NCBI GenBank assembly: GCA_030145625.1
Contig: JAQYVF010000011.1
Location: forward strand, 1-64,000
Source: Desulfocapsa sp.
Lineage (GTDB): Bacteria > Desulfobacterota > Desulfobulbia > Desulfobulbales > Desulfocapsaceae
Reading direction: 5' to 3'
DNA length: 64,000 bases
Numbering within the stretch: the first letter of the stretch is position 1; each line of letters begins with the position of its first letter. Made by a program: the position numbers and the translations under genes. Positions 14,711 through 30,106 of the stretch are shown here, one piece after another. Below the pieces are notes generated by a model. The model was not told where the DNA came from. It did no database searches and saw nothing but the letters and a program-made list of their open reading frames with translations.

Positions 14711-15946
14711 TCAGTTAGCCTTCTTTCTCAGATAAGTCGGGGTTTCCATATACTCCTCATTCCAAGCCTGACTATCCTGCTTACTTTTGGATTTGTCGCC
14801 TGAGGAGATTCCGTGATTTTCAAAACCGTTAAAATTGGAAGATGAAAATATGGATTTTCTGGCCTGTGGATTGGTCGGAGCCGGAGATGTATGCGCAGGA
14901 CGCTCTCCCTGTTCTTCGGCGGCAGAAGTTTTGTTCTTATTCGGCGATGCCATATCCACTTGAACAAGCTTTTCTTTCGAGGGAACCACTTCTCCCACAC
15001 CTGTGGCAATAACGGTGACATGAAGTTCATCACCTAAGGCATCGTTATAGAGAGCACCGATAACCACCTTGGCCTCATCATCAACCTTGGCATGGATAAG
15101 GGCTGAAACTTCCATAAACTCAGCCATGGTAAATGTCTCTTCCGAGGCTGAAATATTGATGAGCAGGCCGCGCGCTCCGTCAATCCCGACATCTTCCAGA
15201 AGCTGGTTGTCGATGGCCCGCTTGGCCGCCTCTGTAGCCCGGCTTTCGCCTGCAGCAACACCGGAACCCATGATTGCCGGCCCTACCTCACGCATCACTG
15301 TACGCAGATCGGCAAAATCGGCGTTGATCATTCCCGGTACATTAATCAGATCCGTAATCCCTTTCACGGCCTGCAGGAGAACTTTATCCGCCATGCTCAG
15401 CATGTCGGAAAGTTTAGAATTCTTCTGCATTAAGGAGAGAAGGCGATCATTGGGGACAGTGATAATGGTATCTGCATATTTGCGCAGCTGGTCCCAGCCT
15501 TCCTCTGCATTTCGCATACGGAATTTCCCTTCAAAATGAAAGGGCTTGGTCACCACGGCCACGGTAAGCGCACCTAACTCTTTACTGATCTTGGCCACCA
15601 CCGGGGCTGCTCCGGTACCGGTACCACCGCCGAGACCGGCGGCGACAAATACCATATCGCTGCCTTTGAGGCTCTCTTTGATTTCATCAATGGACTCCTG
15701 GGCAGCCAGCTCCCCGGTCTCCGGATCTGCTCCGGCACCAAGGCCTTTGGTAATATTGGGACCGATCTGCAAGCAAATGTCGGCTCGAGACTGATTCAAA
15801 GCCTGTTTGTCCGTATTGGCGGCTATAAACGCAACCCCCTGCAGGCGGTCATCGACCATGGTATTGATGGCATTGCCCCCTCCACCACCAACACCTATAA
15901 CCTTAACGACCGCTACTCCCTCTGTTTCCGCCATTCTAAACGGCAT
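14711..15946 (-). CDS. ftsZ: Cell division GTPase FtsZ
   Basis: The tubulin homologue that builds the Z ring: 411 residues. Nucleotide-binding signatures are GVGGGGGNAI near the start, GGGTGTGAAPVVA and the T7-loop region NADFADLRTVM. A disordered linker rich in Lys, Ser and Pro spans about residues 325-395, and the C-terminal peptide is METPTYLRKKAN, the site that binds FtsA. ATG 15946 has AGGGGTGAG directly upstream; a GTG 9 codons earlier is in frame but less likely. Last gene of the dcw cluster, 183 bases after ftsA. Confidence 0.98.
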   Translation of the reverse strand: MPFRMAETEGVAVVKVIGVGGGGGNAINTMVDDRLQGVAFIAANTDKQALNQSRADICLQIGPNITKGLGAGADPETGELAAQESIDEIKESLKGSDMVFVAAGLGGGTGTGAAPVVAKISKELGALTVAVVTKPFHFEGKFRMRNAEEGWDQLRKYADTIITVPNDRLLSLMQKNSKLSDMLSMADKVLLQAVKGITDLINVPGMINADFADLRTVMREVGPAIMGSGVAAGESRATEAAKRAIDNQLLEDVGIDGARGLLINISASEETFTMAEFMEVSALIHAKVDDEAKVVIGALYNDALGDELHVTVIATGVGEVVPSKEKLVQVDMASPNKNKTSAAEEQGERPAHTSPAPTNPQARKSIFSSSNFNGFENHGISSGDKSKSKQDSQAWNEEYMETPTYLRKKAN

Positions 15947-16129
15947 ACTCTCACCCCTGTTCAAGAAATCCACACGTTAATTGGCGTAGCATATCCATAA
16001 AATATCAGCAGATAAATTATAGCATCTGCCACTGTTCACTTAAACATTTTTCTTATGTAACTAAAAAAAATATCCCTCTTTGTTCACTATCCGCTTTAAG
16101 CCTGAGTAGAACTAAAAACAACAAGCTGT

Positions 16130-17386
16130 TTACATAATTTTACGCAGCCAATCCTTCATTCTGCCAACCATGGAACTATCACTATAACGATTGTCCACCT
16201 GGTGCTGCCGTCCATACATCACCAGGCCAACACCTGTGGTACAGCGTGGCGTATGTACTTGCTCCACTTTGCCACCGATCTGAGCCGGATAGCCGATTCG
16301 CACCGGCAGATCAAAAATCTGTTCTGCAAGATCAACCAGATTGGCCAGCAAACCGGTGCCACCGGTGATAACGATGCCGCCGTTAATCTTGTTTTTCAAA
16401 CCGCAATTGATGAGATCCTGATTCACCATCTCCAGAATCTCCACCATCCTCGCCTGAATAATATCAACCAGGACCTTCTGGGTAACCTTTCGCGGGTCCC
16501 GATCACCGACAGTGGGCACATCAACCACGTGATTTGGTTTGATCAGTGAAGAAATGGCACTACCATATTCCTCCTTCAATCGTTCAGCATCCTGAAGTGG
16601 CGTACGCAGCCCTACGGAAAGATCATTTGTCAGGTTATGTCCGCCTAAACCGATTTCACAGGTATGGCGGATGGTCCCATCACAGAACACTGCCAGATCC
16701 GTGGTTCCACCACCGATATCAAGGAGGGCAACTCCTAATTCCATTTCATCAGGACTGAGGCTTGCATGGGCCGAGGCTATAGATTCAAGGACCATGTCAG
16801 CCACTTCAAGACCTGCCTTGTTACAGCATGTGTAGAGGTTATGCACAGCACCCATATCTGCAGTGACGATATGAACATTTGTAACCAGTCGTACCCCGGT
16901 CATTCCCAAGGGGTTTTGGATACCGGTATGGTCGTCAACCATATATTCCTGAGGAAGAACATGAATGATCTGCTGATTTTCAGAAATCTTCACGGTCCTG
17001 GCAGCACTAACGACATCGGCAACATCATTTTCCTTTATTTCCCGGCCATTAATAGCCAGGATTCCAGGACTATTAAAGCCCTTGATATGATTTCCGGCAA
17101 TGCCGACATACACAGTACTCAGATCGCAGCCGGCAGACTCCTCTGCCTGCCCCACCGCCTGTTTAATAGATTTGACGGTGGACTCGATATTTACCACCAC
17201 TCCCTTTTTCAAACCCATGGAAGGAGCAGTTCCAAGTCCGATAATATCCACCGCATCCTCAAAAACCTCACCAACCACACAGCAGATTTTAGTGGTTCCG
17301 ATATCGAGCCCGACCACGAGATCCCCTGATTCTCTGTGCTCCTCCTGCTCTACCTCGCCTACCTGTCTGACTTCAATTTCATCCAT
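16130..17386 (-). CDS. ftsA: Cell division protein FtsA
   Basis: An actin-like ATPase tethering FtsZ to the membrane, 418 residues. Phosphate-1 is VVGLDIGTTKICCVVGE, phosphate-2 is LLDIGGGTTDLAVF, and the adenosine motif is GGIVITGGTGLL. The C-terminal amphipathic helix VGRMKDWLRKIM is the membrane-targeting sequence. ATG 17386 lies 9 bases behind AGGG; an in-frame TTG at 17395 is less likely. It lies between ftsQ and ftsZ in the usual order. Confidence 0.97.
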   Translation of the reverse strand: MDEIEVRQVGEVEQEEHRESGDLVVGLDIGTTKICCVVGEVFEDAVDIIGLGTAPSMGLKKGVVVNIESTVKSIKQAVGQAEESAGCDLSTVYVGIAGNHIKGFNSPGILAINGREIKENDVADVVSAARTVKISENQQIIHVLPQEYMVDDHTGIQNPLGMTGVRLVTNVHIVTADMGAVHNLYTCCNKAGLEVADMVLESIASAHASLSPDEMELGVALLDIGGGTTDLAVFCDGTIRHTCEIGLGGHNLTNDLSVGLRTPLQDAERLKEEYGSAISSLIKPNHVVDVPTVGDRDPRKVTQKVLVDIIQARMVEILEMVNQDLINCGLKNKINGGIVITGGTGLLANLVDLAEQIFDLPVRIGYPAQIGGKVEQVHTPRCTTGVGLVMYGRQHQVDNRYSDSSMVGRMKDWLRKIM

Positions 17387-17554
17387 ACTTTTCAACCCTG
17401 TAACTTAACCATTTCATTCACCATGCCTGCAGCAATCTCCTCGTTTAACTAATCTTCAGCACCCCGGATTCATTAAAAAAGGCTGGTAACCCCACACCCA
17501 ACTCCTTGAGCCAACCTGATCAAACAAAGAGGGCCACTGATAAATCATTTCTTT

Positions 17555-18544
17555 TCAACCTGTATTGCTTTGGGCGACCAACACCTTATTTTCCTGATAA
17601 TCCATACGGATATACGCCACTTTCTCAATCAGCGCCCCGCCTTTTTTCTTTTGATACAATACTTCCAACACCTTACACAGCTGGTAATATTTTCGTTTTA
17701 TATCTCCTTTGCCAAAATAGATGGGAAAGGGATGTTTCACCAGGTAGAGGATCATCTCTCCTTCAGCGGTTAGATGAACCTCCGAAACATTCTGGGCTGG
17801 CAGATTTGGATTGTTAATCTGTGCAAACCGCAAAAACAAGATTGCCTTGTCAAGCAGTTGTTCTTTCTCTTCTTTCCCCTCTACTGTATCAAGCCCGGTA
17901 ATAACCGGAAAGTCAAGTGCCATCCCCTGCACAGCAGGTGCAAAAATTTTTCCTGATTTATCAAGGTAATAAAAACTTTGTTCTTTTCCCTGAACGACCA
18001 GGGCCTCAGGACGATACTCATTGACGGAAACAACCAGTCCGGCTGGCCAGATTCGTCTGATTTTCGCCAAAGAGACCCAAGGATGCTCTTGTAACCGTTG
18101 CTGAATTGCTTCCGGATCCAGGGTCAGCATATTCATCTGATAATTAATCCCTGCAAACTTTCTCAACACAGCTGGAGTAGTAACCCGGCAACCGGAGATC
18201 TCAATTTTTCGAATCTGAAAATAGCGGTAATTTCCAAGAAAGCCCTGTAAGGGGCCAACCAGAACAAAATATCCCCCCATAAACGTGACAGTCAATACCA
18301 GAGAAAAAAGCAACAAACGCTTCCATCCTCCTCGCTCTCCTCCCTGAACAGGAGTGACTGTTTCATGCTTTTTTCGTTGCTCAAAACAACTCTTCAACTT
18401 CTCACGAAAAGTCTTTTTTCCCGCCTTTGCTCCAAGATGACTTGCCCTATAGCAGGGTTGCTGTTTCATTTTTTCAGCAAAAGCGGTCACTGATCCTTTT
18501 CTTTTACCCCCCAGCAATAATCCAATTTTTTCCAACAGCTTCAT
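17555..18544 (-). CDS. ftsQ: Cell division protein FtsQ
   Basis: A 329-residue bitopic inner-membrane protein of the FtsQBL subcomplex. It has a long basic cytoplasmic tail (about 90 residues, longer than in E. coli), one transmembrane helix around residues 94-112, a POTRA domain starting near IRKIEISGCRVTTPAVL, then the beta domain. The C-terminus contains many Lys residues. It starts 9 bases after the murB stop; no ddl gene lies between them. Confidence 0.93.
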   Translation of the reverse strand: MKLLEKIGLLLGGKRKGSVTAFAEKMKQQPCYRASHLGAKAGKKTFREKLKSCFEQRKKHETVTPVQGGERGGWKRLLLFSLVLTVTFMGGYFVLVGPLQGFLGNYRYFQIRKIEISGCRVTTPAVLRKFAGINYQMNMLTLDPEAIQQRLQEHPWVSLAKIRRIWPAGLVVSVNEYRPEALVVQGKEQSFYYLDKSGKIFAPAVQGMALDFPVITGLDTVEGKEEKEQLLDKAILFLRFAQINNPNLPAQNVSEVHLTAEGEMILYLVKHPFPIYFGKGDIKRKYYQLCKVLEVLYQKKKGGALIEKVAYIRMDYQENKVLVAQSNTG

Positions 18545-18553
18545 AATTACTTC

Positions 18554-19480
18554 TTATAGAAGGTGCACCTCAGTTTCCAGTGTAATACCAGTATCTTTCG
18601 CCACCTTTTCTCGGACCAGTTCCATCAAGCTCAGGACATCTTTTGCCGTGGCCTGTCCACTATTCACCAGAAAATTGGCATGGACCGGAGAGACCATAGC
18701 CCCTCCACAACTTTTACCCTTGAGGCCTGAGGCCTCAATGAGTCGTCCTGCCGAATCACCCGGCGGATTCTTAAAAAAAGAACCCGCATTCTTCAGCCCC
18801 TTTGGCTGTTTCTGCAGACGCTGCTGCAGATAGCTTCGACAGCTGGCAGCTATTTCCTCTTTCATCCCTTGTCGCAAATCAAGATCTGCCGAAATCACCA
18901 ACCGTTTTGCCCCATCGTTCTCTAGATTTTCCCACAATCTGTAACTAAAGTCTAATTCTTCGCGCCCCAGGATTTTTTCACCTGTGAATAGGCTGACAGT
19001 AGCAAGTGAAGCAATCACATCTGCCATCTCTCCCCCCCAGGCCCCTGCATTCATAACCACTGCCCCTCCCAGACTTCCGGGGATGCCGCTGACAAATTCC
19101 AGACCGGAAAGGCCTTGATCCAGACACCAGGCCAGGAGGCGGGCAAGACTGCAACCGGCACCAACACGAACAACGACCCGTCCAAATTCTGCTTCTTCCA
19201 GAAGTGCTATCTGGGAGAGCCCCTTACCAAGGATGAGAATAACGCCAGTAAAACCGCTGTCTGCAACAAGAAGATTGGTCCCTCTTCCGATGAGACGCCA
19301 CTCCAGATTGTTTTCGACAAAACATTTCAGCAGCCCCTCAAGCTCTGCAACACTCTCTACTGTAATCAGAGCAGATGCCGCCCCACCGATACCAAAAGAG
19401 GTATACGGAGCAAGAGAACAATCCCACTGAACCTGATTGACGGCAAGAGTGCTGAGCCTTTTTTTAAGCTGCTTTTCCAT
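18554..19480 (-). CDS. murB: UDP-N-acetylenolpyruvoylglucosamine reductase
   Basis: The FAD- and NADPH-dependent second step to UDP-MurNAc, in the cytoplasm; 308 residues. FAD-domain motifs are YTSFGIGG, LIGRGTNLLVAD and GSLGGAVVMNAGAWGGE. The catalytic Ser lies in NAGSFFKNPPGDSAG and the C-terminal Glu in LETEVHLL. The HANFLVN segment is conserved. Length and the missing tyrosine loop suit the type II group. It begins 5 bases after the murC stop. Confidence 0.97.
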   Translation of the reverse strand: MEKQLKKRLSTLAVNQVQWDCSLAPYTSFGIGGAASALITVESVAELEGLLKCFVENNLEWRLIGRGTNLLVADSGFTGVILILGKGLSQIALLEEAEFGRVVVRVGAGCSLARLLAWCLDQGLSGLEFVSGIPGSLGGAVVMNAGAWGGEMADVIASLATVSLFTGEKILGREELDFSYRLWENLENDGAKRLVISADLDLRQGMKEEIAASCRSYLQQRLQKQPKGLKNAGSFFKNPPGDSAGRLIEASGLKGKSCGGAMVSPVHANFLVNSGQATAKDVLSLMELVREKVAKDTGITLETEVHLL

Positions 19481-20873: not shown

Positions 20874-22004
20874 CTACTCTTTTCCAGAAGCGGATCTGAC
20901 TCTTAAGGAGCTGTGCCCCAGCAGATCCATGCACACATCAACAATATGTTCCGTCGCCTCGGGAAAGGCCCGACTGCGCATGGCAGTCCCCATTGCTTCA
21001 AGTCCTTGCTGATCTCCAAGCAGACGCACAAGGTTCTCGCCCAAGAGATCAGCTGTCAGCTCTTTTTCCACTAACATTTCGGCCCCGCCACCCTGCACAT
21101 AAAACTCTGCATTTTTTTCCTGATGCCCGTCCGCTGCATACGGATAAGGAATAAGGAGCGCAGGTTTTCCAAGAACGGCAATCTCGGCAAGGGTGGTGGC
21201 CCCGGCACGTGATATCAGGAGATCTGCCTTCTCATACACTTCTGCCATATCACGAAAAAAAGGAGAAACAGTGGCCTCTATTTTATTTTTACGGTAACTG
21301 GCCTCGACCATCTCAGTGTCATCCGGCCCAGTCTGATGAATCACCCTGACTCCCTGTAAACCCGGTAGACCAAGGCCAAAGGACTCAATTACCAATTCAT
21401 TCACCCGGTGGGCTCCAAGGCTTCCCCCCAGAACCAGCAAGGTGAGCGGCCCCTCTTTCTTTTTCTTCTCTTTCCCGGCCAATGTCAGGATGGCATCACG
21501 AACAGGATTACCGGTGAGTACAGCTTTCTCAGGGGAAAACCATTTTTCACTCCCCGGCAAAGAAAGACAAATCTTAGCCACCAGTGAACCCAGTTTCCTG
21601 TTGGCCAATCCAGGAATGGCATTCTGTTCATGGATAAGTGTCGGTTTGCCAAGAAGTTTTGCCACCGCCACCACAGGACCGGTGACGTAACCGCCGACCC
21701 CAACCACCAGGTGGGGCCTAAAACGCAGGATGTGATACATTGCCTCCAAACAGGATAGGGGCAGGACAGCCAGCCCCTGGAGAAGAGATATATAACTCTT
21801 CCCTTTCAACCCCTTACAATGAATGGAAGAGGTGGCATATCCATATTCTGCAAGACTGTTTCGATCCATTTTTCTTTTGGTTCCCACAAAGAGAACTTCA
21901 CTTCCCGGCAGACGCCGGCAAAGGGCCTCAGCCGTGGCTATGGCCGGAAAGAGATGGCCACCGGTTCCACCACCAGTGAGCATGAGTCGTACAGGAGTAT
22001 CCAT
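20874..22004 (-). CDS. murG: Lipid II synthase MurG
   Basis: A GT28-family peripheral membrane glycosyltransferase adding GlcNAc to lipid I; 376 residues. Signature sites are GGTGGHLFPA at the N-terminus, HEQNAIPGLANR, LVLGGSLGAHRVNE, and the donor site SRAGATTLAEIAVLGKP. ATG overlaps the murD stop as ATGA. In most bacteria ftsW lies between murD and murG; here the direct overlap leaves no room for it. Confidence 0.98.
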   Translation of the reverse strand: MDTPVRLMLTGGGTGGHLFPAIATAEALCRRLPGSEVLFVGTKRKMDRNSLAEYGYATSSIHCKGLKGKSYISLLQGLAVLPLSCLEAMYHILRFRPHLVVGVGGYVTGPVVAVAKLLGKPTLIHEQNAIPGLANRKLGSLVAKICLSLPGSEKWFSPEKAVLTGNPVRDAILTLAGKEKKKKEGPLTLLVLGGSLGAHRVNELVIESFGLGLPGLQGVRVIHQTGPDDTEMVEASYRKNKIEATVSPFFRDMAEVYEKADLLISRAGATTLAEIAVLGKPALLIPYPYAADGHQEKNAEFYVQGGGAEMLVEKELTADLLGENLVRLLGDQQGLEAMGTAMRSRAFPEATEHIVDVCMDLLGHSSLRVRSASGKE

Positions 22005-23389
22005 CAGACTACTGTCTCCCTTATCTGCTCTTTGAAGTTCAGTACTGCATCACAGAAAACTTCACCCCGATGGCCATAACTATCAAACATATCAAAACTC
22101 GCACACGCAGGAGAGAGGAGAACGACATCACCTGGTTCTGCAACTTCTACGGCAACAGCCACGGCATCTTCCATGGAAGCCGCCCGATTGGCACGAATCA
22201 CACCTTTTAAGGCCTCATCTATGGACTCTGCCGCCTCACCTATGAGTATAAGTTCCTTTACTTTTTTCCCAACCAACTCTGTGAGCACGCTGTAATCTTC
22301 CCCTTTATCCCTTCCTCCGGCAATGAGAATAACATTTCCCGAGAAAGAGGCCAAAGCACTGAGCACGGCTCCGGTATTGGTGGCCTTTGAATCGTCATAA
22401 TAATCGACCCCTTTCCTCCTGGTAACGAGCTGTAGACGATGGGCTGCCGGTGTAAAATGATTGAGGGTTTTCTGTATTTCTTCCGCTTTACAGCCGAGTA
22501 GTGAGGCAGCAAGAACCGCGACTCCGCTATTTAGCAGACCAGTATGAGAAGCAAGCTGAGTTCCGGCAAGAGAGTAGAAATCTTTTCTGCCCTCCAGAGT
22601 GATTGTCAGTTCATTTCCCTCACCTTTGGCCTCGCACTCTTCTTTAGTACCAAAAGAATAAACTTTCTGCTCAGTGAGCAGGGGCATAATCTGTCTGCAC
22701 ATGGGATCATCGCTGCCAAGGATTGCCTTGTCCTGTTCTCCCTGGTGGGCAAAGAGTTTCATCTTCGCTGCAGCATAGGCAACCATAGAACCATGGCGAT
22801 TGAGATGATCAGGGGTAATGTTGAGCAACACCCCTATATCCGGGCGAAAATCCCCGGCCGATTCCAGCTGAAAACTGGAAAGTTCAAGGACCAGAACATC
22901 AACCCGTTCTCCCTGACAAAGATAATCAAGGAGAGGAGTTCCGATATTTCCCCCCACAAAAACCTTTTTCCCGGATGATTTCAGCAGCTCTCCTATCAGG
23001 GCAGTGACCGTGGTTTTGCCATTGGTTCCGGTTACCGCCACTACCTGTTCAACGAGCTGCGGTGCGGCCAGGGCCAGTTCACCAAGAAGCGGGATATTCT
23101 GTTCTTTCATCTCCATGAGCAGAGGCAGATCCTTGGGGACACCGGGGCTAAGGACAATAAAGTCACCCTGAAGAAAGAATTCCCTGCTGTGACCACCACC
23201 TTCAAATGCAACATTATTTTCCTGTAAATATTCCTGGTCAGCCAGGGGAAGTTCTGCAAACTCACGGCTATCTGAGACAAAAACCTGCACACCGGAAGCC
23301 AGCAGATAACGAACCGCTGCACGACCGGAAACACCAAGTCCCATGACCACTGCCCTCTGTCCGGGCCTTATCCTGTTTATAGAATCCAT
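22004..23389 (-). CDS. murD: UDP-N-acetylmuramoylalanine--D-glutamate ligase
   Basis: A cytoplasmic ligase adding D-Glu; 461 residues. It has an N-terminal nucleotide-fold domain (VVMGLGVSGRAAVRYL), the ATP site AVTGTNGKTTVTALIGELL, the central domain with NITPDHLNRHGSMVAYAAAK, and the C-terminal domain with VDYYDDSKATNTGAVLSAL and SPACASFDMFDSYGHRGE. The ATG overlaps the mraY stop (ATGA), and its own stop overlaps the murG start, so the three are translationally coupled. Confidence 0.98.
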   Translation of the reverse strand: MDSINRIRPGQRAVVMGLGVSGRAAVRYLLASGVQVFVSDSREFAELPLADQEYLQENNVAFEGGGHSREFFLQGDFIVLSPGVPKDLPLLMEMKEQNIPLLGELALAAPQLVEQVVAVTGTNGKTTVTALIGELLKSSGKKVFVGGNIGTPLLDYLCQGERVDVLVLELSSFQLESAGDFRPDIGVLLNITPDHLNRHGSMVAYAAAKMKLFAHQGEQDKAILGSDDPMCRQIMPLLTEQKVYSFGTKEECEAKGEGNELTITLEGRKDFYSLAGTQLASHTGLLNSGVAVLAASLLGCKAEEIQKTLNHFTPAAHRLQLVTRRKGVDYYDDSKATNTGAVLSALASFSGNVILIAGGRDKGEDYSVLTELVGKKVKELILIGEAAESIDEALKGVIRANRAASMEDAVAVAVEVAEPGDVVLLSPACASFDMFDSYGHRGEVFCDAVLNFKEQIRETVV

Positions 23390-24475: not shown

Positions 24476-27400
24476 TCAAATGCTAAGTTGTTCAACAAGG
24501 GTTTCCAGCCGCATACCACGCGACCCTTTAATCAGGATATAGGTCCCGGAATGTACACTTCCCAGAACAACCAGTTCCTGTATCCACAAGAGACAATCTT
24601 TCTTATCCGAAAAAACTCTTATGCGGGCAGGTTCCATACCCTGCTCCCGGGCCCCAACCGCAGCCGCTGGAGCAAACTCCCCCACCAGGCCAAGATAGTC
24701 GACCCCGGTCAGGGCAGCATGGGCTCCGATCTCTCTATGCAAAGATTCACTCATCTCTCCCAGTTCCAGCATATCGCCAAGGATAGCGACACGTTCTCCC
24801 GACCCAAGTTGGCAGAGTGTACTGATGCCGGCTCTCATGGAAGCGGGGTTGGCATTATAGGTGTCATTTATGAGTCGACTTCCAGCCGGACCATCCAGGA
24901 TCTGCATACGACGATCCGTGGGAGCAAAGGCAGAGAGTCCTTTGGCAATCACCGAAATTCCAACTCCTGCCGCATATGCAATGGCTGCTGCGGCAAGAGC
25001 ATTGGCTATGTTATGGACTCCAGGTACTTGCAGAACAACCCGAGCCTCTTCCTCCAAGACATGAAGAGTGAAGTGGACCTCTTCGCCATTACCTGTTTCC
25101 TGCGTAGAGGACCGGATTTGCAGAGGAAAAGTATATTGCTGCGGGTTCATCCCGTAGAAAATTTTTTTCTGTTCACAATCCCGAGCAGCAGCCAACACCC
25201 TTGGATCATCACTATTTACTACCAGGACACAGTTCTTACCGCAACCTTGAAAAAGCTCACTTTTTGCCCTGGCTACCCCTTCAATATCTCCCAGACCCTG
25301 GAGATGTGCTCCGTGGACATTGACAATACAGGCGATATCGGGATCTGCTATCTCTGTAAGTCTTGCAATCTCACCAGGGGCGTTCATTCCCATTTCTAAA
25401 ATTACCGCCCGATGTCTCGGGATAATTGGGAGCAGAGAAAGAGGCAGCCCAATCAGATTATTAAAATTCCCTTCTGTCTTCAGTACCCTTCCCCGGGCAA
25501 CATCTGCATCATCAGGAAACTGTTCGGCAAAAATAGCAGCACACATCTCCTTGACCGTAGTCTTGCCACTGCTTCCGGTAATTGCAGCCACCATTGGATG
25601 GCTGGTCTCCTTCATACAATACCGCCTGTACGCAGCAAGATCCCCCAGTGCTTGTTCCGTATCTTTTACAATAACCGCAGGAACCGAAAGGGGTAATTCC
25701 GGTTCCCGGTCAAGGATAAGACAGCCTGCACCTGCAGCCATGACTTGCTCCACAAAAGCATGCCCGTCAAATCGTTCTCCTCTCAAGGCCACAAAGATAT
25801 CGCCCTTGCCAATCTTTCGCGAATCAGTGGACAGGGAGCCAAGTTCCCTCTCTCCTTTCAAATCCGTTACCAGAGAGCCTCCAGTGGCCTGAATCAGATC
25901 TTTAATTCTCCAGCGACTCAAGGCCTCTGCAGACTGAAGCGAATCATCAAAGAATTTTTTCCCTTCTGCTGTCAACTGGTAGCATTCATGCCCCTTGCCG
26001 GCAATGAGAACGATATCCCCCTTTCCTGCTGCTGCAATCGTCGCATTAATGGCCTCACCACGATCAGAAATAAGAACAAAGCCCTGTTCTCTTTCCCTCC
26101 TCTCCTGCAGCCATGCAACTTCCTGCTCAGCAAGACCTGTTTCCTGCATTCCCACAACGATTGCAGAAAGAATGGAAGAGGAGTCTTCACTGCGCGGATT
26201 GTCATCGGTGACAACGGCAACATCACTGTATCTGCCGGCAATTTCACCCATCAGTGGCCGCTTCCCCGTATCCCTGTCTCCGCCACAGCCAAAGACACAA
26301 TACAGGGTTCGATGGGGAAGAACTTTCACTGTTCTCAGAACCTGCTTCAGGGCATCCGGCGTATGGGCATAATCAATAAAAACCGACGGCAGAAAAGACT
26401 CGCTGTGTGTACAGAGCTTCATTCGCTGCAGACGTCCGGGAGCACCGACGGCATCGCTGAGAGCAGTACAGATCGACAAAGGATCCATGCCAAGAGCCAG
26501 GGCTGCACCAAAAGCGGTCTGAAGATTCGCCACATTAAAATCTCCAACCAATGGGGAAGTGAGACTCAATTCTCCTTTCGGTGTTTGCAGACGAACCCTG
26601 GTTCCACTCAGTTCTCCTTTAACCTCAAGAGGATAAATATCTCCACTTACTGATCCACAACAACAAACAGAAAAATGGAGTTGTTCGCATATATCCCGAA
26701 GCCTGTCACTCCAGAAATATTCCTCCATTCCTGAATCAGTCATGGTGATAACCGCTCCACCACCCTTTTGCAGATGTCTGGTAAAAAGTAGGGATTTGGC
26801 AGCAAAATAAGCCTCCATGCCCTGATGGTAATCCAGATGGTCACGTGAGAGGTTGGTAAAGGCCGCCACATCAAAAGAAATTGTTCCGATACGCCGCTGT
26901 TGCAGGCCATGGGAGGAGACCTCCATGATCACTGTATCCACTCCACTCTCTGCCATACGGCGCAATGTTTGCTGAAGCAAGAGAGGTTCAGGGGTGGTAA
27001 AAGATGAAGATAACGTAACCATCCTACCCTGCTGGGTAAGATAACGATAATTAATGGTCCCCAATATACCCGGATGCTTTCCAGCCTGATGCAGAACCGA
27101 CTCCAGGAGATAACTGACGGTGGTTTTACCATTGGTTCCTGTAATACCAACCATGGTCATTTGCCGGGCAGGATAAGCGAAGAGGATTTCCGCAATCTCA
27201 GCATAGACCGTTCTCGTGTCCTCAACTTCAATGACACAGATGCCCTCTTCACCATAAAGCCCCTTGTCCAACCGTCCCTTTTCCACAAGAAGGGCGGAAC
27301 ATTTTTCATTCACTGCCTGGTCAACAAAGCTATGTCCATCACACTGGCTACCGACAAGGGCAATGAAAAAAGATCCTGCTCTCGCCTTGCGGGAATCTGA

Positions 27401-27604
27401 TGTGATCTGGTTAATAATACAAGTTGAAGGAGTGCCGGCGAGTAGATGATAACCGTCGAGGGAAGCGAGAAGAGATGCGAGAGTGATTCCTTTAGGAGAT
27501 GACACAGCAGTCCCGGGGCTCGTACAGACCCAGTCTCCGATAACACATTGTTCTTTAGCCTTGAAAGGTTCCGACATTTCTGATTCCTTTACTCTTACAT
27601 CCAT
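24476..27604 (-). CDS. murEF: MurE-MurF fusion ligase
   Basis: A single 1042-residue frame joins two consecutive peptidoglycan ligases. Residues about 40-555 are MurE (adds meso-DAP): GITGTNGKTTVSYLLES P-loop, DDNPRSED (the DNPR motif for meso-DAP specificity) and GKGHECYQ. From about residue 565 to the end is MurF (adds D-Ala-D-Ala): STDSRKIGKGDIFVALRGE, AITGSSGKTTVKEMCAAIF, NDTYNANPASM and ILGDMLELGEMS. No stop or start separates them, and both ATP sites look intact. Elsewhere the two are normally separate adjacent genes. It sits between ftsI and mraY, as murE and murF do. The fusion could channel the tripeptide product. Confidence 0.95.
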   Translation of the reverse strand: MDVRVKESEMSEPFKAKEQCVIGDWVCTSPGTAVSSPKGITLASLLASLDGYHLLAGTPSTCIINQITSDSRKARAGSFFIALVGSQCDGHSFVDQAVNEKCSALLVEKGRLDKGLYGEEGICVIEVEDTRTVYAEIAEILFAYPARQMTMVGITGTNGKTTVSYLLESVLHQAGKHPGILGTINYRYLTQQGRMVTLSSSFTTPEPLLLQQTLRRMAESGVDTVIMEVSSHGLQQRRIGTISFDVAAFTNLSRDHLDYHQGMEAYFAAKSLLFTRHLQKGGGAVITMTDSGMEEYFWSDRLRDICEQLHFSVCCCGSVSGDIYPLEVKGELSGTRVRLQTPKGELSLTSPLVGDFNVANLQTAFGAALALGMDPLSICTALSDAVGAPGRLQRMKLCTHSESFLPSVFIDYAHTPDALKQVLRTVKVLPHRTLYCVFGCGGDRDTGKRPLMGEIAGRYSDVAVVTDDNPRSEDSSSILSAIVVGMQETGLAEQEVAWLQERREREQGFVLISDRGEAINATIAAAGKGDIVLIAGKGHECYQLTAEGKKFFDDSLQSAEALSRWRIKDLIQATGGSLVTDLKGERELGSLSTDSRKIGKGDIFVALRGERFDGHAFVEQVMAAGAGCLILDREPELPLSVPAVIVKDTEQALGDLAAYRRYCMKETSHPMVAAITGSSGKTTVKEMCAAIFAEQFPDDADVARGRVLKTEGNFNNLIGLPLSLLPIIPRHRAVILEMGMNAPGEIARLTEIADPDIACIVNVHGAHLQGLGDIEGVARAKSELFQGCGKNCVLVVNSDDPRVLAAARDCEQKKIFYGMNPQQYTFPLQIRSSTQETGNGEEVHFTLHVLEEEARVVLQVPGVHNIANALAAAAIAYAAGVGISVIAKGLSAFAPTDRRMQILDGPAGSRLINDTYNANPASMRAGISTLCQLGSGERVAILGDMLELGEMSESLHREIGAHAALTGVDYLGLVGEFAPAAAVGAREQGMEPARIRVFSDKKDCLLWIQELVVLGSVHSGTYILIKGSRGMRLETLVEQLSI

Positions 27605-27637: not shown

Positions 27638-29551
27638 TTACTCTTGCTTACTGTCTTTTGACAGGTTCGGGATCTGCACAGTCTCTTTGGGGGTGGCGTC
27701 CTTTTTCAAGATGAGCACACATTGCGCTCCAGCTTTCAACACCTTTCCGGCCTCCGGGCTCTGCGAAACAATACGTCCCGATCCCTCAACATGCACCTTC
27801 ACCTCGATTCCCTGTAAAACCCGCAATGCCTTTCTCAAGCTGAGTCCGGTTAACTTCGGCATAATTCGAGTCTGTTCCTTCAGCATTCCGGCAAGATTTT
27901 TCACTTCCTTCCCTTCGGCTGTCACCTCACTCTGAAAATTCTCATTTTTCTTTTCTGCTACCTCTACCATGCCGGCAAGAGTGGAACTGACCTGCTGCAG
28001 CGCCACCATTGAAGGAAGAATGGTATCAATGCGTTTACAGAGAAAATCCTGATTTGAGTCATCGACCAGCGTTGGTCCCAGCTCTCTTTGCCGAGATACC
28101 AGGAGCAGAATCATTTCCGGTTTTTCTGCCGGAATAGCAATCAAAGACATCCGGTCACGCACATACTCGAACCCAGTCGACACTGCTATCCTGGAGACTG
28201 ATTCTCCAGAAAGTGCTACTGAATCAAGAATGCCAGGTTTTCCCTTGGCTCGAAGTAAGGTCCTCAACTCACGGGAGACCAGGGATGGCAACACATTTCT
28301 CCCTCGCACTTGTCCTTGAAAGGCATTAAAAAAATATTCTTTCTGGCTTGGTCTCTCCAGCACTCGATCTAAAAAATGCGGCTGGATTTTTTTTCCGCCG
28401 TTTAAGAGATGAGTAAATCCAAGAAGCACCTTCAAGGGTGGAGCAGTTTTTGGAACCGTACCCAGGTCTGCACCGGGGCTGCAATCAATAAACTCCGGGA
28501 TAGAGCTGACCTGTTTCTTTCCTCCGGAGAGATCAACATTTAACTCTGTGGTCAGCTGCAAACGATCCCAGAGCTTAAGCTGCCTGGAAAAATCTATCGT
28601 TTCTGCAACCAGACTCCAGGGAAAGACCTGAGTTCCCTGCTCCCACCCACCCTGGAGAAGAGATGCATCTCGAAAAAATTGCCTTATCTCTTCCGGGACA
28701 ACCATGGGGCTAAAGAGAATATTCTCCAGCACCTCATTTTCATACTGCCAGATGGTGTTTGGATTATAGGAGGGATAATTAGCCCCGGCAATAATTTCCC
28801 CTTCAACCGTATCCAAAAAGAGAGACCCAATCTGAACACTACCCAGCCCCCCCCCCAGATCAGCCACATATTTATCAAGGATGGCCTGAATTTTCATATC
28901 AACGGTCAAAACCAAGTCATGACTGTAACCGCTGGTCTGTTCCTCTCCTTTGAGATCGATTGCCGGTATATCTTTCTGCCGAACATGATCATGGCTGAGC
29001 AGATGATCATAATAATGCTCTATTCCAGCAAGACCAAGATCATTTTCCGCATATCCGATCAGATGTGCTCCGAGTGCCTGTTCCGGATATTTTCTCGCAA
29101 ACTCCCGTTGCAGGTATATCCCCGGTAAATTCAGTCTGTGAATCTCCTCTTCTTCTCCCTGACCGATGTCACGGCGAAGCCAGACAAGGTGTGAATCTCT
29201 GCCCAGACGTTGATTGAGTTCCTTTTCAGGTATCCCCAGCAACAGGGAGAGCTTGCCAGCAGTCTCCTGCAGGTTTTCTACTTCGCGTGGCCTGGCATAG
29301 AGCGAAACCCGTTCAAGAGTCTGAGCAAGATCTTTAAAGTTTCTGTCGTAAATTGTTCCTCGAACGCTCTCTGCGGGTGACTCATTTACCGGAAAGGTCT
29401 CCTGCCAAACCTCGGACAGGGTGAGCAATTGCTGTCGAAAGACAAACGCAATCCCCGCCACCACAGCCAACACCAACAAAACGACCAGTAATATCCGTAG
29501 CAGCCGTCTTCTATTATTTTCCGTCCTGAGGCGGGATCTCCTGACCATCAT
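27638..29551 (-). CDS. ftsI: FtsI/PBP3-like protein with PASTA domain, catalytic motifs missing
   Basis: Position, one N-terminal helix (about residues 18-38), a PBP-dimer domain (RGTIYDRNFKDLA; GYAENDLGLAGIEHYY) and a transpeptidase-like fold identify the septal class B PBP slot; a C-terminal PASTA domain begins near MPKLTGLSLRKAL. The three active-site motifs are absent. After NYPSYNPNTIWQY, where EPGSTFK (SXXK) should follow, the sequence diverges; no SXN is found; and KTGT is replaced by SGES in VALSGESVSRIA. The TPLQ-equivalent region (APPLKVLLGFTHLLNGGKK) is still recognisable, so this is not a misread frame. It probably cannot crosslink peptidoglycan and may be a structural divisome part. 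ATG 29551 or 29548 is the likely start; TTG 29578 is in frame. Confidence 0.85.
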   Translation of the reverse strand: MMVRRSRLRTENNRRRLLRILLVVLLVLAVVAGIAFVFRQQLLTLSEVWQETFPVNESPAESVRGTIYDRNFKDLAQTLERVSLYARPREVENLQETAGKLSLLLGIPEKELNQRLGRDSHLVWLRRDIGQGEEEEIHRLNLPGIYLQREFARKYPEQALGAHLIGYAENDLGLAGIEHYYDHLLSHDHVRQKDIPAIDLKGEEQTSGYSHDLVLTVDMKIQAILDKYVADLGGGLGSVQIGSLFLDTVEGEIIAGANYPSYNPNTIWQYENEVLENILFSPMVVPEEIRQFFRDASLLQGGWEQGTQVFPWSLVAETIDFSRQLKLWDRLQLTTELNVDLSGGKKQVSSIPEFIDCSPGADLGTVPKTAPPLKVLLGFTHLLNGGKKIQPHFLDRVLERPSQKEYFFNAFQGQVRGRNVLPSLVSRELRTLLRAKGKPGILDSVALSGESVSRIAVSTGFEYVRDRMSLIAIPAEKPEMILLLVSRQRELGPTLVDDSNQDFLCKRIDTILPSMVALQQVSSTLAGMVEVAEKKNENFQSEVTAEGKEVKNLAGMLKEQTRIMPKLTGLSLRKALRVLQGIEVKVHVEGSGRIVSQSPEAGKVLKAGAQCVLILKKDATPKETVQIPNLSKDSKQE

Positions 29552-29632: not shown

Positions 29633-29998
29633 TTAAAACTTTCTATATTGACCGGATTTCGGCAGGTAAAGAGCCAGATCATGCCCTGCCATCTTACTTA
29701 CCTCGGCCGAAGAAAATGACTTCGCATTTTCGGCCCGAAGCAGGATATTGGCAGTGACCAGTTCATGGTGAAGGGCTGTCGTTTTTTCAATCTCCCCATT
29801 TACCCGCTGAAGAGCACCCGTAAGCCAAAATGAGCAGACAAAAAGCAGAACAGATGAAAAGAGCAGAACCTTTGTCACCGCATACCAGAGCTGTTTTCCA
29901 CCCGGCATACTGAAAGCTGTCTGCCGACGTGCATATGGACGATTGCGCAGGGTGTTCCCTCGGGGGATCATGGTGTTGGCTGAAGGATTGATAATCAT
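29633..29998 (-). CDS. ftsL: Cell division protein FtsL-like
   Basis: A 121-residue bitopic protein in the FtsL slot between rsmH and ftsI. It has a basic N-terminal tail, one transmembrane helix (about residues 40-62) and then a short heptad-type coiled coil (RVNGEIEKTTALHHELVTANILLRAENAK), which would pair with FtsB and bind FtsQ. Sequence conservation in this family is weak, so the call rests on size, topology and place. ATG 29998 has AGAGGTGA upstream; a further in-frame start lies at 30019. Confidence 0.75.
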   Translation of the reverse strand: MIINPSANTMIPRGNTLRNRPYARRQTAFSMPGGKQLWYAVTKVLLFSSVLLFVCSFWLTGALQRVNGEIEKTTALHHELVTANILLRAENAKSFSSAEVSKMAGHDLALYLPKSGQYRKF

Positions 29999-30106
29999 GG
30001 CGTCACCTCTTTGTCTCATATTTTACTATCTGTTACGTGCATGTTGAAAATCGCATAACACCCTGAAACATAACCGTTTCACACTACTCCTGGTGTTGGC
30101 GACCCG

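Follow-up and report, generated by a model that had tools for sequence, protein, structure and literature searches.

A conserved FtsI-like protein without catalytic motifs and an empty ftsW place in the dcw cluster of Desulfobulbales

The window (the whole stretch of 64,000 nucleotides analysed) carries a dcw cluster on the minus strand, in the order mraZ, rsmH, an FtsL-like gene, pseudo-FtsI, a MurE-MurF fusion, mraY, murD, murG, murC, murB, ftsQ, ftsA and ftsZ. Pseudo-FtsI, as we call the gene in the ftsI slot, extends from 27,638 to 29,551 (minus strand; ATG at 29,551, stop codon ending at 27,638) and encodes 637 aa without SXXK, SXN or KTG. Read on the plus strand, the same interval contains many stops; the open frame runs on the minus strand. 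This orientation, the missing ftsW and the extent across the order were absent from the sequence-only reading of this gene that preceded our analysis. On one side lies the FtsL-like gene (29,633 to 30,019, minus strand), assigned from its position and a weak match (NCBIfam ftsL, E 0.078), and the next gene downstream is the MurE-MurF fusion (24,476 to 27,604, minus strand; 1042 codons). The gene listing suggests the same single MurE-MurF frame in many relatives. Both in the window and in relatives, the gene thus has the ftsI position between rsmH/ftsL and murE, and the gene order around it is kept.

Further along the cluster, murD (22,004 to 23,389, minus strand) is directly followed by murG (20,874 to 22,004, minus strand); the two overlap by one base at the murG start, and the usual place of ftsW is therefore empty. 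No SEDS gene was found between murD and murG in any of the 88 relative loci that hold both (33 from the genome set and 55 named), where the largest gap is 511 bp, at a locus whose murD is split in two. The cluster also encodes ftsQ (17,555 to 18,544, minus strand; POTRA_1 and FtsQ_DivIB_C), ftsA (16,130 to 17,395, minus strand; NCBIfam ftsA, 5.5e-130) and ftsZ (14,711 to 15,973, minus strand; NCBIfam ftsZ, 2.8e-118). There is no ddl between murB and ftsQ (18,544 to 18,554, minus strand), where some dcw clusters carry one.

Pseudo-FtsI starts with an N-terminal helix (residues 14-52 in the AlphaFold2 model), followed by the pedestal or PBP dimerisation module (28,937 to 29,371, minus strand; residues 61-205; PBP_dimer, PF03717, 1.3e-12), which retains the RGTIYDR and GLAGIE boxes, so that helix and pedestal with its RGxIYDR box are those of an FtsI. 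The transpeptidase-like lobe (27,989 to 28,936, minus strand; residues 206-521), recognised by the AlphaFold2 model and VIA, is devoid of catalytic residues by sequence, and a single PASTA domain (27,701 to 27,871, minus strand; residues 561-617; PF03793, 4.6e-9) is the most conserved region. The sequence-only reading had described an ftsI-slot gene retaining a membrane anchor, a dimerisation domain, a transpeptidase-like lobe and a PASTA domain, and Pfam together with the predicted model bears this out. The Transpeptidase match is sub-threshold (E 0.15, 11.7 bits, cut-off 22.1), and in NCBIfam the highest-ranking models are those of class B PBPs, each far below its cut-off and matched mainly in the N-terminal part.

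The AlphaFold2 model (mean pLDDT 83, pTM 0.72), built on an alignment of 67 sequences (66 of the 76 named sequences plus the window), predicts a transpeptidase fold. Its best Foldseek matches are PBP2x, SpoVD, Staphylococcus aureus PBP1 and Pseudomonas aeruginosa PBP3. VIA-align placed the best rows at Z 32-35 over model residues of about 61-521, among them SpoVD (Z 35.2), PBP3 7ony (Z 32.6, rmsd 3.7, 401 aligned) and the FtsI of the FtsWIQBL complex, 8bh1_B (Z 32.1, rmsd 4.5, 403 aligned). The comparison of a predicted structure with PBP3, suggested in the earlier reading, thus gave a matching fold (Z about 32), and our statement on the active site comes from the sequence alignment and not from residue pairs.

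For the catalytic motifs, we aligned the sequences onto a profile built from 11 intact FtsI sequences of the phylum, which were chosen by the EPGS pattern, so that their own motifs are no independent control. One of them comes from G090 and the others from ten outgroup genomes with two SEDS, which were chosen before motif inspection and have one such FtsI each; 10 of the 11 were seen in a dcw cluster with ftsW (L133 is outside that count). G138, a genome chosen on other grounds, retains all FtsI motifs. At the aligned columns of the window protein, the Ser and Lys of SXXK are replaced by Glu and Gln (E288-I-R-Q291; 28,679 to 28,690, minus strand), the Ser and Asn of SXN by Thr and Glu, and KTGT by E450-S-V-S453 (28,193 to 28,204, minus strand; residue numbers here are hand-counted from the translation). 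The profile alignment confirms that all three motifs are missing (E/Q, T/E and ESV in their place), as had been read from the sequence, and the SGES noted then in place of KTG does sit at the aligned KTG position. Between the SXXK and KTG columns there are 162 residues in the window and 191-202 in the 11 references, and by eye no S-x-N or S-x-D occurs in residues 288-450 of the translation. At the level of aligned sequence, the putative active site of pseudo-FtsI is confirmed to be without catalytic residues.

The same state was found in the relatives. The alignment has 147 rows, 70 from genomes of the order and 77 from named records, which overlap in organisms and give no species count; it includes the window copy (L036) and the longer piece of a broken gene (L105), and a frame of 308 codons (L242) was excluded. 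Motifs were read in 70 of 77 order genomes: G017 has no FtsI-like gene in the stretch fetched, and G027, G046, G047, G051, G056 and G060 are outside the set read. No row has both Ser and Lys at the aligned SXXK columns (gaps in 37 rows at the Ser column and in 27 at the Lys column), four have both Ser and Asn at the SXN columns, where the alignment is weak, and one (L079) has KSG at the KTG columns. Loose motif patterns matched in some rows, often in or near the PASTA domain, none with Ser and Lys at the aligned columns. We also used a profile-free check anchored on the upstream PxFDPN box, feasible in 130 of the 147 rows, and some S-x-x-K occurred within the next 45 residues in three of them. 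When 69 rows from the order (without the window copy and the broken gene) were aligned by MAFFT with 27 class B PBPs of outgroups, the same motif replacement was visible by eye; the 27, of 30 outgroup loci, were those with both motifs found by pattern (L119, L121 and L125 were dropped). The orthologue alignment that the earlier reading had called for therefore returned orthologues that are motif-less as well (70 of 77 order genomes and 77 of 78 named loci), one shifted S-x-x-K apart.

Among the named strains lacking Ser and Lys in these columns are Desulfoprunum benzoelyticum DSM 28570, Desulforhopalus singaporensis DSM 12130, Desulfopila aestuarii DSM 18488, Desulfobulbus elongatus DSM 2908, Desulfobulbus rhabdoformis DSM 8777, Desulfogranum marinum DSM 2058 and Desulfogranum japonicum DSM 18378. 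From the names of matching records we infer that the order is Desulfobulbales: the nearest named matches come from MAGs with a name at phylum level, followed by Desulfocapsa, a genus assigned by NCBI to Desulfobulbales. NCBI ranks place 65 of the 78 named loci in Desulfobulbales and 2 in Desulfobacterales, and give no order for 11. Cable bacteria are members of Desulfobulbaceae, a family of Desulfobulbales.

Against three relatives at about 80% identity, dN/dS is 0.14-0.17 for the whole gene and 0.11-0.15 for the transpeptidase-like lobe; constraint is looser in the first 60 residues (0.20-0.59) and in the linker (up to 0.65, one pair not computable). Pseudo-FtsI is under purifying selection and, because dN/dS is about 0.15, is not a decaying pseudogene. 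The claim that the long frame is selected as a non-enzymatic protein is supported by these ratios together with the motif-less orthologues. Across the 67 sequences, PASTA has a mean pairwise identity of 0.48, the pedestal one of 0.41 and the lobe one of 0.28. Selection on the lobe could also speak for a cryptic or relocated active site with some transpeptidase or other chemistry left, as could L084 (genome G069), 1 of the 130 anchored rows, with an S-x-x-K three residues off the expected SXXK spot, by chance or as a remnant; the row of a congener (L075, genome G059) is not among the three anchored rows with S-x-x-K. We regard such a site as very unlikely, given that no single residue is present in half of the rows at any motif column and that, of the 20 residues invariant in alignment A1 (10 in the pedestal, 7 in PASTA), just 3 are in the lobe.

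The genome to which the window belongs (4.98 Mb in 229 contigs, with a listed completeness of 100%) has four Transpeptidase (PF00905) matches, MrdA and three class A PBPs, so that no intact FtsI was found elsewhere in it; the search for another class B PBP proposed in the sequence-only reading returned MrdA and no other by Pfam. The class A PBPs have matches to Transgly and Transpeptidase; their lengths are 618, 770 (with UB2H) and at least 1089 codons. In the longest (L004, 1 to 3267, minus strand) the Transpeptidase match spans only profile positions 9-128, and many of the order's genomes have GT51 frames of about 1100-1170 codons. One SEDS match was detected, beside MrdA and outside the FtsW clade; a divergent or moved FtsW was considered, but position, tree and profile score all identify this only SEDS as RodA, and no cognate FtsW of pseudo-FtsI was found in the genome. 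The rodA and mrdA genes lie with mreB, mreC and mreD (the mre genes named from translations). We further detected one SPOR protein and one DivIC/FtsB-family protein, the latter by a weakly specific match that two archaeal control genomes also give. Septal transpeptidation has to be carried out by MrdA, a class A PBP or another enzyme class.

We surveyed SEDS in 159 genomes of the order with a completeness of 90% or more and found exactly one match in 151, none in three (G017, G175 and G243) and two or three in five (G004, G226, G057, G257 and G291). Of these five, two were looked at: G004, with an estimated contamination of 8%, has two RodA-like genes (L316 and L318), and in G057, a single-contig genome, the RodA-like gene is in two overlapping frames (L317). 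G298 has only a weak match (1.5e-24). In the SEDS tree, the order is represented by 14 rows, which group together (100/99) among RodA and MrdA-linked SEDS, and 12 FtsW rows (11 dcw-encoded and that of Escherichia coli) split off at 100/100. In this tree, the SEDS from the order and from single-SEDS outgroups fall outside the FtsW clade, apart from G090 and G138, whose single SEDS is an FtsW in the dcw cluster. The RodA profile outscored the FtsW profile in all 42 SEDS frames compared (31 loci of the order, four frames of G004 and G057 and seven single-SEDS outgroups).

Pseudo-FtsI was matched in 76 of 77 order genomes, in some merely over a short stretch of PASTA or pedestal. A single strong class B match is present in 76 of the 77, beside RodA in the loci seen; among the matches listed, G004 alone has a second, weaker one. 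Each of the 77 genomes has at least two GT51 matches; the best-scoring short type (E 2.0e-63 or better) is present in 72 among the matches listed, and the two genomes of genus g16 are without it. An error in assembly or annotation, or a pseudogene next to an intact copy, could be suspected from the draft state of the window's genome with its 229 contigs and from the broken gene of G024 (in two frames), and is nonetheless of negligible probability: the same state is found in 70 order genomes (some single-contig) and 77 named loci, one strong class B match, beside RodA where seen, is present in 76 of 77 genomes with a second, weaker one listed only for G004, and selection is purifying. Orthologues with intact motifs, which the earlier reading had named as a sign of assembly error, did not turn up, as none of the 147 rows keeps SXXK at the aligned columns. 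The gene of G024 (L105), itself in a single-contig genome, may be split by sequencing error or by real loss.

Among 141 genomes of the phylum outside the order, SEDS matches number two in 108, one in 28, three in 3 and none in 2; having just one SEDS is no peculiarity of the order. In other families with only the SEDS beside MrdA, the ftsI-slot frame is also decayed (one to three genomes for each family). In f28 a Transpeptidase match of 5.1e-29 is retained, yet Glu and Gly stand for Ser and Lys. The open frames have 538 (f66), 560 (f72), 569 (f76), 457 (f75) and 440 (f40) codons, and in f35 and f65 they are down to 248-329 codons with a PASTA-like end. Nine such loci with murD and murG (the f40 locus aside) have no SEDS frame between them, and all 11 FtsW-bearing control loci have one there. 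In two genomes of f35 the ftsW slot holds membrane-protein frames of 267 codons (L206, 4110 to 4910, minus strand) and 270 codons (L207, 4588 to 5397, minus strand), which we refrain from naming FtsW remnants, as they match neither FTSW_RODA nor the FtsW and RodA profiles. In the tree of MraY, MurD, MurG and MurC, 13 rows of the order form one clade (100/100). On this tree the FtsW losses need three changes, of which the starred branches force only one. In these other families the decay is parallel and goes even deeper.

Together with PASTA being the most conserved part, the shrunken frames of f35 and f65 favour a reading in which the protein has no synthase partner and is a septal wall sensor or anchor through its membrane helix and PASTA domain. 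We consider it improbable for the order, where pedestal (identity 0.41) and lobe (dN/dS 0.11-0.15) are conserved too.

The FtsW-FtsI pair is treated as a near-universal septal wall synthase. In these sulfur bacteria the division wall is probably built some other way. Like FtsI/PBP3, pseudo-FtsI has the dcw place, the membrane helix, the pedestal and a predicted transpeptidase fold, with PASTA as in the intact FtsI of the phylum, but unlike FtsI/PBP3 it is without SXXK, SXN and KTG, and no FtsW was found. We propose that FtsI lost its transpeptidase chemistry and was retained as a divisome scaffold or regulator. The membrane helix and pedestal would dock on FtsQ-FtsL-FtsB, the PASTA domain may contact septal peptidoglycan or a partner, and the protein would position or switch on the real septal enzyme, most likely a class A PBP and otherwise RodA-MrdA. 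A non-catalytic role in the divisome, taken generally, is likely, and we counted in its favour that FtsQ, one DivIC/FtsB-family protein and a weak FtsL remain.

The more specific reading, in which a fixed pseudo-FtsI is kept as a divisome part with a class A PBP as septal synthase partner, we hold to be an even call. A class A PBP could replace both FtsW and FtsI because it is bifunctional, and three are present in the window's genome, so that a partner of the type known for Clostridioides difficile PBP3 is available in the same cell. Counted against it are that no class A type was seen in every genome and that RodA-MrdA is as widespread. In C. difficile, according to the parts of the reports consulted (PMC12539705, PMC10693644), class A PBP1 acts as the septal synthase and class B PBP3 aids it without needing its own active site, a role seen in cells deficient in PBP1 transpeptidase. 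In the same sources, PBP3 of C. difficile still has SXXK (mutated in the study) and is non-essential, whereas in pseudo-FtsI it is the dcw gene itself that carries the fixed loss. E. coli FtsBLQ is described, in the portion of the paper seen, as regulating class A PBP1b (PMC6325244). S. aureus PBP1 resembles pseudo-FtsI as an FtsI-type PBP with PASTA; in the sections consulted (PMC9426605), its PASTA domains bind peptidoglycan and are essential, and septum progression is reduced but continues with an inactive transpeptidase. Unlike here, the same sections report a PBP1 whose transpeptidase activity is essential too in MSSA, with FtsW present and two PASTA domains.

RodA-MrdA might instead make both side wall and septum, with pseudo-FtsI bringing the pair to the Z-ring and linking it to FtsQLB. 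It is the only SEDS-class B pair found, and the single-SEDS outgroups G096, G101 and G136 have just two PF00905 matches, MrdA and one other. The location of rodA and mrdA with mreB, mreC and mreD in the window's genome is the usual elongation setting, and in C. difficile, which has a similar gap, the RodA-class B pair acts in elongation according to the part of the report consulted (PMC10693644); we see septal RodA-MrdA as a tentative, rather doubtful alternative. Returning to a protein that acts through another synthase, we judge the chances balanced that the order divides with FtsZ, FtsA and FtsQ and without an FtsW-FtsI synthase, pseudo-FtsI passing the divisome signal to another wall synthase and the decay going further in other families.

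Part of this has been noted previously. Absence of ftsW, zipA and ftsN was reported for four genomes of Desulfobulbaceae, a family of the same order, in a paper on cable bacteria, and FtsI decay is unmentioned in the text examined (PMC7873302). We did not find a report of FtsI decay or of an order-wide link to FtsW loss in the literature searched, which left most subscription papers and all preprints outside; these two points are apparently new, and the FtsW absence in four Desulfobulbaceae genomes was already known.

The order would represent a natural lineage with the shell of FtsI and without its chemistry or FtsW, one that separates the scaffold role from the enzyme role without mutants. 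It would give the C. difficile divisome a counterpart among diderms. We predict that division in these bacteria should proceed in the presence of FtsI-specific beta-lactams and might be blocked by moenomycin.
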